Assembly: GCA_030418545.1 (NCBI GenBank)
Contig: QAIB01000009.1
Location: 124,001-188,000, forward strand
DNA length: 64,000 nt
Direction of reading: 5' to 3'
Origin: Xenophilus aerolatus
Lineage (GTDB): Bacteria > Pseudomonadota > Gammaproteobacteria > Burkholderiales > Burkholderiaceae_C
Shown here: in pieces, positions 5,120 through 7,770 of the stretch
How the letters are laid out: every line of letters begins with the position of its first letter
How positions within the stretch are numbered: the first letter of the stretch is position 1
The notes under the pieces: generated by a model
What the model was told of the DNA's origin: nothing
Databases searched by the model: none
What the model saw: only the letters and a program-made list of their open reading frames with translations
Translations under genes and position numbers: made by a program

Positions 5120-6481
5120 TCAGGCGTCCAGCGTCTCCACGGGCAGCGCCTTGACCGGGCCTCGCACGGCGGGATGGGTAGCCAGGGCCCGCAGCGCGTC
5201 GTCCAGGGTGGCCTGCACGAGGAGCCCCGTGAGGCACAGCGCCTCGGGCGCCGCGGCGGGCGTGTGGTCGGCCCATACCACCCGCTGCAGCGACACGCCG
5301 TGCCCCGCCAACGCGGCCTGCAGCGCGTCCAGGCGCTGGCCGGCGACCAGCGGCACGCGCAGCCATCGCACGCCCGGAGCCGCTGCGCGCGGCAGCACCG
5401 GCAGCGCCTCGGTGGCATGCGGGTGCACGCCGAGGTGCGGCACCTGCTGCGCCGGCGGCACGCCCTCGAGGCGCGCCAAGTCCACCAGGTCGGCAATCAC
5501 TGCCGAGGCGGTCTGCTCCGCGCCGGCGCCGGCGCCGTAGTACATCGTCACGCCCGCCGCGTCGCCCTTGACCATCACGCCGTTCATCGAGCCGTTGACC
5601 TGCGCCAGCAGATGCGTGGCCGGCAGCAGCGTGGGCTGCACGCGCAGCTCCACGCCCTCGGGCGTGCGGCGCGCCACGCCCAGCAGCTTGACGCGAAAGC
5701 CGAGCTGCTCGGCGCCGCGCACGTCGGCCGCCTCCAGGCCGTCGATGCCCTCGACCTGCACGTCGGCGAAGCGCAGCGGCATGCCGAAGGCGTTGGCCGC
5801 CAGCAGCGTGAGCTTGTGGGCGGCGTCGATGCCCTGCACGTCGAAGGCCGGGTCGGCCTCGGCGTAACCGAGCGCCTGCGCCTCGCGCAGCGCGTCCGCG
5901 AAGCCCATGCCCTCGTCGCGCATCTTGCTCAGGATGAAGTTGCTGGTGCCGTTGATGATGCCGGCCAGCCATTCGACGCGGTTGGCAACGAGCCCTTCGC
6001 GCAGCGCCTTCACGATCGGGATGCTCACGGCCACCGCGCCCTCGTAGGCCACAGCCACGCCGCGCGCCCGCGCCGCCGCGAAGATCTCCTCGCCGTGCAC
6101 CGCCAGCAGGGCCTTGTTGGCGGTCACCACGCGCTTGCCGTGCGCGATGGCCGCCAGCACCCAGTCGCGCGCCGGCCCGGTGCCGCCGGCGGCCTCGACC
6201 ACCACGTCGACCTCGGGGTGGGCGGCCACCTCGAAGGGATCGGCCGTGACCGGCACCGCCGCGCCGACGATGCGCGCCGCGCGCGCCAGGTCGCGCGCCG
6301 CCACGGCCACGATCTCGATGCCCCGGCCGGCGCGCGCGGCGATGTGGCGCTGGTTGCGAGCCAGCACGCGGAAGGTGCCGCCGCCCACGGTGCCGATGCC
6401 GATCATGCCCACGCGCAGCGCACGGGTGGCGGCCGGCAGCAGGCCGCGGGCTTCGAGGGACGGGACGGGATCGCGGTACAT
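5120..6481 (-). CDS. hom: Homoserine dehydrogenase
   Basis: It reduces aspartate semialdehyde to homoserine, the branch point to threonine, isoleucine and methionine. The 453-residue protein has the Rossmann motif GIGTVGGG near residues 28-35, TANKALLA near 120, and the catalytic-domain segment EGAVAVSIPIVKALREGL continuing into INGTSNFIL. The C-terminal 80 or so residues are the expected regulatory ACT-like region. The start is fixed by a good Shine-Dalgarno (CAGGAG) seven bases before ATG. Neither thrC nor an aminotransferase adjoins it here; upstream on the same strand is aapM. The 5' leader carries a threonine-type attenuator (separate entries), which implies feedback by charged tRNA-Thr and tRNA-Ile. 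Confidence 0.95.
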   Translation of the reverse strand: MYRDPVPSLEARGLLPAATRALRVGMIGIGTVGGGTFRVLARNQRHIAARAGRGIEIVAVAARDLARAARIVGAAVPVTADPFEVAAHPEVDVVVEAAGGTGPARDWVLAAIAHGKRVVTANKALLAVHGEEIFAAARARGVAVAYEGAVAVSIPIVKALREGLVANRVEWLAGIINGTSNFILSKMRDEGMGFADALREAQALGYAEADPAFDVQGIDAAHKLTLLAANAFGMPLRFADVQVEGIDGLEAADVRGAEQLGFRVKLLGVARRTPEGVELRVQPTLLPATHLLAQVNGSMNGVMVKGDAAGVTMYYGAGAGAEQTASAVIADLVDLARLEGVPPAQQVPHLGVHPHATEALPVLPRAAAPGVRWLRVPLVAGQRLDALQAALAGHGVSLQRVVWADHTPAAAPEALCLTGLLVQATLDDALRALATHPAVRGPVKALPVETLDA

Positions 6482-6497
6482 GGACTTCTCCTGACGA

Positions 6498-6527
6498 CAA
6501 AAAACAAACCCGGCTGCCAGGCCGGGT
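6498..6527 (-). terminator. Intrinsic terminator in the hom leader
   Basis: On the minus strand the RNA forms a stem ACCCGGC/GCCGGGT with loop CTGGCA, followed by TTGTTTTTT, and ends about 17 nt before the hom ATG. A terminator directly upstream of a start codon on the same strand is the hallmark of an attenuated leader. Confidence 0.85.
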
Positions 6528-6556
6528 GGGTCAGTCGTTTGGAGGAAGATCGATCA

Positions 6557-6601
6557 CCAGGTGGCTGCCGGAACGGGCCACCTGCACGTGCTCAGGTGGC
6601 C
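6557..6601 (-). promoter_or_regulatory. Mutually exclusive hairpins of the hom attenuator
   Basis: Three segments share sequence. In RNA order they are GGCCACCTG (6601-6593, overlapping the last leader codons), CAGGTGGCC (6584-6576) and GCCACCTG (6565-6558). Segment 2 can pair with segment 1 (9 bp) or with segment 3 (8 bp), not both. When segment 1 pairs with 2, segment 3 is freed and its ACCTGG could pair, with one wobble, with CCGGGT of the terminator stem. The exact antiterminator link is therefore inferred. Confidence 0.7.
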
Positions 6602-6624
6602 GTGGTGGTAATCGAAATCATCAT
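6592..6624 (-). CDS. Threonine/isoleucine-rich leader peptide MMISITTTAT
   Basis: This 10-codon ORF (two consecutive ATG codons, ending TGA) contains four Thr and two Ile codons out of ten, like the E. coli thr operon leader peptide in logic though not in length. It overlaps the first arm of the competing hairpins and precedes the terminator and hom, so a ribosome stalled at the Thr or Ile codons would change leader folding. No strong Shine-Dalgarno is visible before the first ATG, which is the main weakness. It is too short for normal gene callers. Confidence 0.75.
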   Translation of the reverse strand: MMISITTTAT

Positions 6625-6720
6625 TCGTGCGTCCGGTGTCCGCCGGGCGGCGGACGGCATCGCACGGCCCGGATGGGCGGCGGATGCGCGGTGGAACGGA
6701 TGGCACGACATGGAGCGGCG

Positions 6721-6726
6721 AGTATA
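6721..6726 (-). promoter_or_regulatory. Candidate -10 box for the hom leader transcript
   Basis: TATACT on the minus strand differs from the sigma-70 consensus at one base. It sits just after the aapM stop codon and about 95 nt before the leader peptide. No convincing -35 was found at standard spacing. Confidence 0.35.
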
Positions 6727-6735
6727 GGCCGGGTT

Positions 6736-7770
6736 TCACGGCGCGCTGGCCAGGTGTCGCTCCAGCCATGCGCTGTAGCGCGACAGGCCGAAGCACAGCA
6801 CCCAGTAGACGGCCGCGATGAAGAGGTAGCCCTCGAGGTAGAACGGCCGCCAGGTCGGGTCGCCGCCCAGCGCCAGGCCCAGCGCGCCGGTCAGCTCGAA
6901 CAGGCCGACGATGGTGACGAGCGACGTGTCCTTGAGCGTGCCCACGACGTTGTTGGTCAGCGCCGGCACCACCAGGCGCAGCGCCTGCGGCAGCACGATG
7001 TCGCGCTGCACCGGCCAGCGGCCGAAGCCCAGCGCCATTGCCGCCTCGGTCTGGCCGCGCGGCACGGCCTGCAGGCCGCCGCGGATGATCTCGGCCAGGT
7101 AGGCCGCCACGAAGAGGCTCAGGCCGGCCAGCACGCGCACCAGCACGTCGGGCTTCCAGCCCGCGGGCCACAGCAGCGGCAGCAGGTACGAGGCCATGAA
7201 CAGCACGGAGATCAGCGGCACGCCGCGGATCAGCTCCACGTAGGTCGCGGCCAGGGCGCGCACCGCCGCCCAGGGCGAGCGCCGCGCCAGCGCGAGCACC
7301 AGCGCCAGCGGAAAGGCCAGCGCCAGCCCGACCACGGCCAGGCCGATGGTCAGCGGCAGCCCACCCCACCGGTTGGTGGGCACCGGCGACAGCCCGGCCA
7401 CGCCGCCGAACATCAGCAGCACCGCGACGGCCAGCGTGCCGGCCCACAGCGGCAGCAGCCACCAGCGCCAGCAGCGCGGCCAGGCGCTCAGCAGGGTCGT
7501 GGCCGACAGCAGCGCGACCGCGACCGCCGGGCGCCACTGTTCCTCGTAGGGATAGCGACCGAAGAGCATCGGCCGCCACTTCTCGGCGATCACGCCCCAG
7601 CAGGCGCCGTGGTGCGCCGCGCGGCAGGCTTCGGCGTCGGGCCGGAAGACGGCATGCAGCAGCGCCCAGTCAAAGGCATGCCAGGCCGCCCAGCCCAGCG
7701 CGGCCAGCAGCAGCAGACTCACCGCGGCGCGCACCGGCGAGCCGAAGAGTTCCGCGCGCCAGCCGGTCAC
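6736..7770 (-). CDS. aapM: General L-amino-acid ABC transporter permease
   Basis: This is the second membrane subunit of a polar-amino-acid importer. The 344-residue protein has an N-terminal segment, several hydrophobic helices and the permease EAA-like region VPRGQTEAAMALGFGRWPVQRDIVLPQ, conserved in the His/Glu/Gln/Arg/opine family. It starts at a GTG whose last two bases overlap the aapQ stop codon (GTGA), so it is translationally coupled. The matching ATPase gene aapP, which usually follows, is absent: hom comes next on this strand. Confidence 0.9.
   Translation of the reverse strand: MTGWRAELFGSPVRAAVSLLLLAALGWAAWHAFDWALLHAVFRPDAEACRAAHHGACWGVIAEKWRPMLFGRYPYEEQWRPAVAVALLSATTLLSAWPRCWRWWLLPLWAGTLAVAVLLMFGGVAGLSPVPTNRWGGLPLTIGLAVVGLALAFPLALVLALARRSPWAAVRALAATYVELIRGVPLISVLFMASYLLPLLWPAGWKPDVLVRVLAGLSLFVAAYLAEIIRGGLQAVPRGQTEAAMALGFGRWPVQRDIVLPQALRLVVPALTNNVVGTLKDTSLVTIVGLFELTGALGLALGGDPTWRPFYLEGYLFIAAVYWVLCFGLSRYSAWLERHLASAP

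Follow-up and report, generated by a model that had tools for sequence, protein, structure and literature searches.

How is the homoserine dehydrogenase gene (hom) at 5120..6481 controlled in this window, the 64,000-nucleotide stretch of Xenophilus aerolatus DNA analysed here, and does the short Thr/Ile-rich reading frame upstream of it act as its sensor? Leader-peptide attenuators are a textbook mechanism, and the E. coli thr leader combines Thr/Ile codons, mutually exclusive stems, and an intrinsic terminator before a homoserine dehydrogenase gene. The original prediction placed a threonine-type ribosome-mediated attenuator with this logic upstream of hom. Our analysis retained Thr/Ile sensing before hom in a Comamonadaceae bacterium, but not the E. 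coli wiring. We consider it likely that a ribosome-mediated attenuator controls this second hom via Ile/Thr supply, through a switch built on the pairing of segments 1 and 2 (1:2) together with that of segments 3 and 5 (3:5); the whole basis for an attenuator before hom is comparative or thermodynamic. The element spans more than first described, from about 6726 (promoter −10) to 6485 (hom Shine-Dalgarno), and consists of the following features:

6721..6726, minus strand: TATACT, −10-like box of the leader's own predicted promoter; such a hexamer lies 6-10 nt before the ATG in 54/54 loci
6592..6711, minus strand: leader ORF, 39 codons, MSCHPFHRASAAHPGRAMPSAARRTPDARMMISITTTAT*, probably leaderless; frame open in 54/54 loci
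6592..6624, minus strand: sensor tail (the earlier 10-codon ORF); Ile at codons 3 and 5, Thr at codons 6, 7, 8, and 10
6593..6603, minus strand: segment 1 (ACGGCCACCTG), from codon 8 into the stop codon
6573..6584, minus strand: segment 2 (CAGGTGGCCCGT), pairs with 1 or 3
6557..6572, minus strand: segment 3 (TCCGGCAGCCACCTGG), 3' half pairs with 2, 5' half with 5
6534..6548, minus strand: segment 6 (CTTCCTCCAAACGAC), anti-Shine-Dalgarno linker
6521..6527, minus strand: segment 4 (ACCCGGC), terminator 5' arm
6508..6520, minus strand: segment 5 (CTGGCAGCCGGGT), terminator loop and 3' arm; partner 4 (terminator) or 3 (antiterminator)
6498..6507, minus strand: U-tract (TTGTTTTTTG)
6485..6498, minus strand: segment 7 (GTCGTCAGGAGAAG), hom Shine-Dalgarno region, pairs with 6
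5120..6481, minus strand: second hom copy, encoding a homoserine dehydrogenase in which no ACT domain is detectable

A model (R1) built from 10 relatives was searched against 399 genomes of the family at E up to 0.1 and matched 77, 46 of them at E 3.6e-6 or better. In the other 31 genomes, matches occurred only at E 4.5e-4 or worse; the two that were fetched (L156, L159) had no leader, nor did the weak second matches L157 and L158 in other genomes. The comparison set of 54 loci comprised the 46 genomes minus three repeats, plus 11 loci titled Xenophilus, Variovorax, Acidovorax, Comamonadaceae, or only Proteobacteria, with L030, L031, and L119-L122 excluded as repeats of another genome. An order-level search matched 21 of 399 genomes, three being the window's and those of two known family members, and gave 19 new loci (L160-L178); 14 of these were read, and L160, L161, and L166 were judged real by eye. 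At the class level, 8 of 321 genomes matched besides the window, all at E 4e-4 or worse, and none of the seven loci read among the nine was leader-like. Across the relatives, Thr/Ile codons and covarying stems are kept at the same place, so the original prediction survived this comparison. The layout exceeds chance above all because the same arrangement recurs in 54 loci. The terminator hairpin with its U-tract had been correctly placed before hom (6527-6498, leaving 16 nt to the hom ATG) and also stands above chance, as a terminator scan of 5500-7700 returned two overlapping matches to this same hairpin against 0.4 in shuffles. The fold of the window element had a z of −3.0, with 1 of 200 shuffles equally stable, and a z of only −1.5 for the part without leader codons. 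By eye, the terminator hairpin and U-rich tail were present in 50/54 loci and the U-tract was gone in 4/54; an automatic hairpin search across loci misplaced some stems.

The 10-codon leader MMISITTTAT of the original prediction (ATG ATG ATT TCG ATT ACC ACC ACG GCC ACC TGA) was confirmed at 6624-6592 on the minus strand, but these codons are only the tail of a 39-codon ORF (6711-6592, minus) that starts with an ATG 9 nt downstream of the TATACT box. A set of −10-like hexamers (TACACT, TATACT, TATGCT, TAAACT, TAGACT), picked after the loci had been inspected and with no reading frame built in, was combined with an ATG 6-10 nt later. This yielded exactly one site per locus, sharing the tail's reading frame in 54/54 and lying in another frame in none, whereas chance would put such an ATG in frame one time in three. 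The distance from box to ATG was 9 nt in 24 loci, 7 in 17, 10 in 5, 6 in 5, and 8 in 3. Transcription usually starts 6-8 nt after a −10 box; by that rule, the 5' UTR would measure about 0-4 nt and the leader mRNA is probably leaderless. Leaderless translation is probable because the in-frame ATG follows a −10-like box at 6-10 nt in all 54 loci. The missing Shine-Dalgarno sequence had been counted as a weakness, and none is clear before the ATG of the ten codons, but the probable leaderless start of the longer ORF answers this objection. The leader ORF measures 31-50 codons across the 54 loci, and Thr and Ile codons occur in 54/54 tails. The internal ATG of the short ORF is missing in L127 and L135 (2/54), where the upstream in-frame ATG is kept. 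Changes in the N-terminal part are spread evenly over the codon positions (63/52/51 in 19 close, non-independent pairs), and this stretch seems to be conserved as an open frame, not as a sequence. Frame +2 is also stop-free in 48/54 loci and frame +1 in 17/54. Since other frames are often stop-free, openness alone is weak evidence, and the argument for the leader depends on where the ATG lies.

The predicted mutually exclusive stems are present (GGCCACCTG/CAGGTGGCC versus CAGGTGGC/GCCACCTG), but the antiterminator, originally taken to be 2:3, is corrected here to segment 3 pairing with the terminator loop and 3' arm (3:5). Among 12 close relatives, most columns in segments 1-3 do not vary. RNAalifold on 12 relatives predicted 1:2 together with this 3:5. 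The antiterminator role of 2:3 was rejected, as RNAalifold pairs 3:5, and 2:3 and the terminator coexist in the fold. An alternative 3:4, segment 3 with the terminator 5' arm, was considered by eye; RNAalifold picked 3:5, and coevolution supports 3:5. Among 41 distinct sequences, the central 3:5 pair was G-C in 14, U-A in 8, A-A in 16, and G-A in 3, and 80.2% of the 3:5 cells were standard pairs, compared with 15.6-41.8% in slid alignments. Of 2000 row shuffles, none matched the observed pairing, and 22 equalled or exceeded the 13 double changes. When the alignment had been fitted to that structure, 96.2% of the 1:2 cells were paired and four double changes were counted; with mafft, the paired share was 91.5%. 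In the 41 sequences, 2:3 cells were paired at 92.9% with zero double changes. Only 70.7% of 4:5 cells were paired; because mafft misaligned the terminator 5' arms, support for 4:5 was taken from the hairpin search and the swap test.

The swap test compares how well a segment pairs with the partner from its own lineage and with one taken from a different lineage. Over all 35 distinct pairs, 3:5 reached −17.4 kcal/mol with its own partner versus −15.6 otherwise, and 0/10000 permutations did as well; the corresponding counts per 10000 were 0 for 1:2, 0 for 2:3, 3 for segment 3 with the loop (3:loop), and 11 for 4:5. In a hand-picked set of 20 lineages (17 genus labels plus L125, L037, and L041), as-good permutations per 20000 numbered 4 for 1:2, 490 for 2:3, 2 for 3:5, 51 for 3:loop, 16 for 4:5, and 0 for 6:7, while three unproposed pairings gave 7815, 14411, and 2198. 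By these comparisons, helices 1:2, 4:5, and 3:5 coevolve across the 20 lineages and 2:3 does so weakly; the coevolution signal of 2:3 is the weakest among the proposed helices. The element resembles the attenuator class in its end-product codons within a short ORF, its terminator before the gene, and an antiterminator, supported by coevolution, that excludes the terminator.

In the switch that we propose, transcription would begin just before the ATG of the 39-codon leader, which would be translated without a Shine-Dalgarno sequence. A shortage of charged Ile- or Thr-tRNA would stall the ribosome near tail codons 3-6, just upstream of segment 1; helix 1:2 would then form, leaving segment 3 free to capture the terminator loop and 3' arm, and transcription would read through into hom. 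Because it is 3:5 that competes with the terminator, the stall would have to leave segment 1 uncovered. With ample supply, the ribosome would reach the stop codon inside segment 1, and 2:3 and the terminator 4:5 would form. Helix 6:7 over the hom Shine-Dalgarno would probably hold back translation of any transcripts that escape termination.

This scheme was examined by mask folding, in which the ribosome-covered stretch was held unpaired at equilibrium only, with assumed ribosome footprints. In the window, P(3:5) was 1.00 for a ribosome edge 12-24 nt after the short-ORF ATG, P(terminator) was 1.00 at nt 28-42, and 3:5 returned at nt 44-52, positions at which the ribosome covers segment 2. Over 38 distinct loci, mean P(terminator) rose with mask length, from 0.24 (20 nt) through 0.51 (24 nt, codon 6) to 0.91 (38 nt). 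The 20-to-38 shift averaged 0.67, versus −0.01 with shuffled linkers, and exceeded 0.5 in 26/38 loci (0.5 or less in 12/38), compared with 5.6% of shuffled linkers. The edge of a ribosome lies about 7-12 nt beyond the first base of the A site. This puts ribosomes stalled at Ile 3 or Ile 5 of the window within the read-through range, those at Thr 6 on its border, and those at Thr 7-10 at or beyond it. The Ile codons of the window would therefore, under this folding model, fit the read-through range better than its Thr codons; most relatives have their first Thr codons at positions 3 and 4, well inside that range. Without a ribosome, the terminator had a probability of 0.97 in the window and a mean of 0.59 over loci, and in the lowest-energy fold of the window the codons ATTACCACC were paired with GGTGAT. 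Applied to the E. coli thr leader, the same procedure gave no switch, P(terminator) staying at 1.00 for edges 0-88; because of this, the mask model, unvalidated on a known case, can miss a real switch.

Between segment 6 and the hom Shine-Dalgarno region (segment 7), pairing with the own partner reached −15.6 versus −12.6 kcal/mol (0/10000; 47 distinct pairs from 52 loci); no start was found in L151 and L152, and the starts in L150 and L155 look misplaced, which also holds for the later folding and swap analyses. Helix 6:7, which lies over the hom Shine-Dalgarno and has the strongest coevolution signal, suggests a translational layer. In L126 and L138, the linker and the Shine-Dalgarno region both differ from those of the other loci, TGTCATTCC with GGAATGAC. 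As the segment order 3-6-4-5-7 makes them cross, 3:5 and 6:7 should exclude each other. At equilibrium in the full-length RNA, 6:7 formed under any mask (means 0.86, 0.85, and 0.88 over 51 loci), and 4:5 plus 6:7 won under any mask in nearly all 51; translation of read-through mRNA would therefore need kinetic trapping. The U-tract is missing in L127, L132, L135, and L142, where a helix over the Shine-Dalgarno region is possible, which suggests an exchanged platform in which only the translational layer would remain.

Could the output be mainly translational, with 6:7 over the hom Shine-Dalgarno as the effector and the terminator secondary? We regard this as rather unlikely. Helix 6:7 does give the strongest coevolution signal of the tested helices (0/20000), and the four loci without a U-tract retain a possible Shine-Dalgarno helix, but the terminator hairpin and U-rich tail persist in the 50/54 loci noted above. 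Moreover, equilibrium 6:7 is insensitive to ribosome position in the 51 loci except for L129 and, partly, L127, the latter being the only one of the four U-tract-less loci that responds to the mask. We consider it unlikelier still that the textbook thr/trp logic applies, in which the stalled ribosome would cover segment 1 and 2:3 would be the antiterminator. The original prediction had adopted this as the thr-leader logic of E. coli, whose leader has the same kind of codons, and 1:2 and 2:3 are indeed conserved and exclusive. Yet 2:3 shares no base with the terminator and does not touch it, whereas 3:5 excludes it; with segment 1 masked, P(2:3) was 0.94 and P(terminator) 0.91 (means, 38 loci), and the coevolving 3:5 has no role in that logic.

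The remaining alternatives concern the reading frame itself. That the 10-codon ORF is the leader and is initiated at its own ATG appears very improbable: an ATG lies at or adjoining that point in 52/54 loci, but it is absent in L127 and L135, no clear Shine-Dalgarno precedes it by eye, and an upstream in-frame ATG occurs in 54/54 loci, on which ground the ten codons were rejected as the whole leader. It is scarcely credible that the hairpins represent a constitutive terminator or a ligand- or protein-bound leader with Thr/Ile codons coincidental to pairing. Although some of the codon content follows from the pairing of segment 1, the codons upstream of that segment lie outside the proposed helices, Thr and Ile codons occur in every tail, the reading frame is preserved in 54/54 loci, and no Rfam family matched at gathering score. 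We favor the ribosome-mediated switch in which 1:2 formation would release segment 3 for 3:5.

The original prediction spoke of a single hom gene, which does not hold if meant genome-wide, since the genome carries another, canonical hom (L002) whose product has an ACT domain (E 5e-10), whereas no ACT domain matched in the attenuated Hom at E up to 1. By eye, an aminotransferase-like gene precedes the canonical copy and a threonine-synthase-like sequence follows it. R1 matched the window site alone in this genome at E up to 0.1, leaving the canonical hom without an attenuator, and inspection by eye found no attenuator before canonical hom in L002, L008, L014, L044, L046, L049, or L051. Among the 46 attenuator genomes, Hom matches at E 1e-40 numbered two in 43 and one in 3, and the same-species genome G006 has the same two hom copies. 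The window and Xenophilus sp. E41 (L030, L031) share a 100% identical Hom, and L030 has the same leader as the window. In that strain, the hom region occurs on two scaffolds (L030, L031) with identical Hom and leader, which may reflect a duplication or an assembly effect. In the three genomes with a single Hom match, all of genus g72 (L145, L146, L149), the attenuator precedes a stand-alone protein of 114-119 residues that aligns to the C-terminal part of the second Hom and has no catalytic domains, whereas the genus member G085 retains the full gene.

To our knowledge, threonine attenuators are known only from enterobacteria and other gamma-proteobacteria; proteobacterial attenuators were reportedly treated by Vitreschak and colleagues in 2004. 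In the open PMC literature, we found no report of a threonine attenuator before hom in beta-proteobacteria, and in the accessible part of PMC2965389 the words threonine and homoserine were not found. Rfam gave no family in the window at gathering score and only chance-level matches below it; RF00506 was absent among nine sub-threshold matches at E up to 10, whereas the E. coli control scored 122 bits. The likeness to E. coli thr (RF00506) lies in the short Thr/Ile ORF, the homoserine dehydrogenase gene, the exclusive stems, and the intrinsic terminator. The window differs in its antiterminator, which is 3:5 with an extra segment, in its probably leaderless leader of 39 codons (21 in E. coli), in the second hom standing in place of thrABC, and in the Shine-Dalgarno helix. 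In the four-segment thr/trp arrangement, 2:3 shares segment 3 with the terminator stem, whereas in the window 2:3 and 4:5 coexist. In the his attenuator of E. coli and Salmonella, a stall gives B:C with D:E, and termination gives C:D with E:F. The window resembles this architecture in its extra segments and in that a stall would favor an upstream hairpin plus a downstream antiterminator; it differs in having no A:B hairpin, and with the stop codon in segment 1 the terminating ribosome would act as A. According to PMC7298713, the attenuator RNA of Sinorhizobium meliloti trpL (rnTrpL) begins with the leader ATG of a leaderless leader ORF; that system concerns Trp, a 14-aa leader, and an alpha-proteobacterium, and the likeness considered here is the leaderless start. 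S. meliloti trpL is a precedent for a leaderless leader ORF.

Threonine-rich leaders were also observed before another gene. In L160, L161, and L166, from other Burkholderiales families, a Thr-rich leader ORF (in L161 ...FIVTTTTTTSTAT*) with the same 1:2/2:3 core precedes a gene that by eye looks like threonyl-tRNA synthetase (thrS), this gene being one of two thrS copies in G439 (L161) and G483 (L166). The ATG lies 6-7 nt after a −10-like box in L161 and L166 (by eye), and at these loci no U-tract was seen and a helix adjoins the thrS Shine-Dalgarno. In the window's own genome, L199 (G000:C11:681200-681840) shows by eye a different short Thr-codon ORF, MTPRTTGTASSGLFPKGMGR*, followed by a terminator before thrS, and L196, L201, L202, and L205 likewise have a short Thr-codon ORF and a terminator before thrS (by eye). 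An Rfam scan of L199, L201, L202, and L205 found tRNAs in the last three and no other family. The leader of the L199 type looks like a separate Thr attenuator.

A wider reading, which we put forward tentatively as a possibility, is that one leader-peptide switch with a leaderless sensor ORF has two outputs. In this form, 3:5 would both remove the terminator and, by crossing 6:7, keep the hom Shine-Dalgarno open, 2:3 would permit both termination and closure, four loci would be purely translational, and a related leaderless Thr leader would precede the second thrS in other Burkholderiales. As the isozyme under the attenuator has no detectable ACT domain, control at the RNA level may replace allosteric feedback. 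A conserved Comamonadaceae version with a leaderless sensor, another switch register, and a Shine-Dalgarno helix would show the mechanism built with different wiring, and the system offers a way to ask how leaderless initiation supports coupled attenuation.
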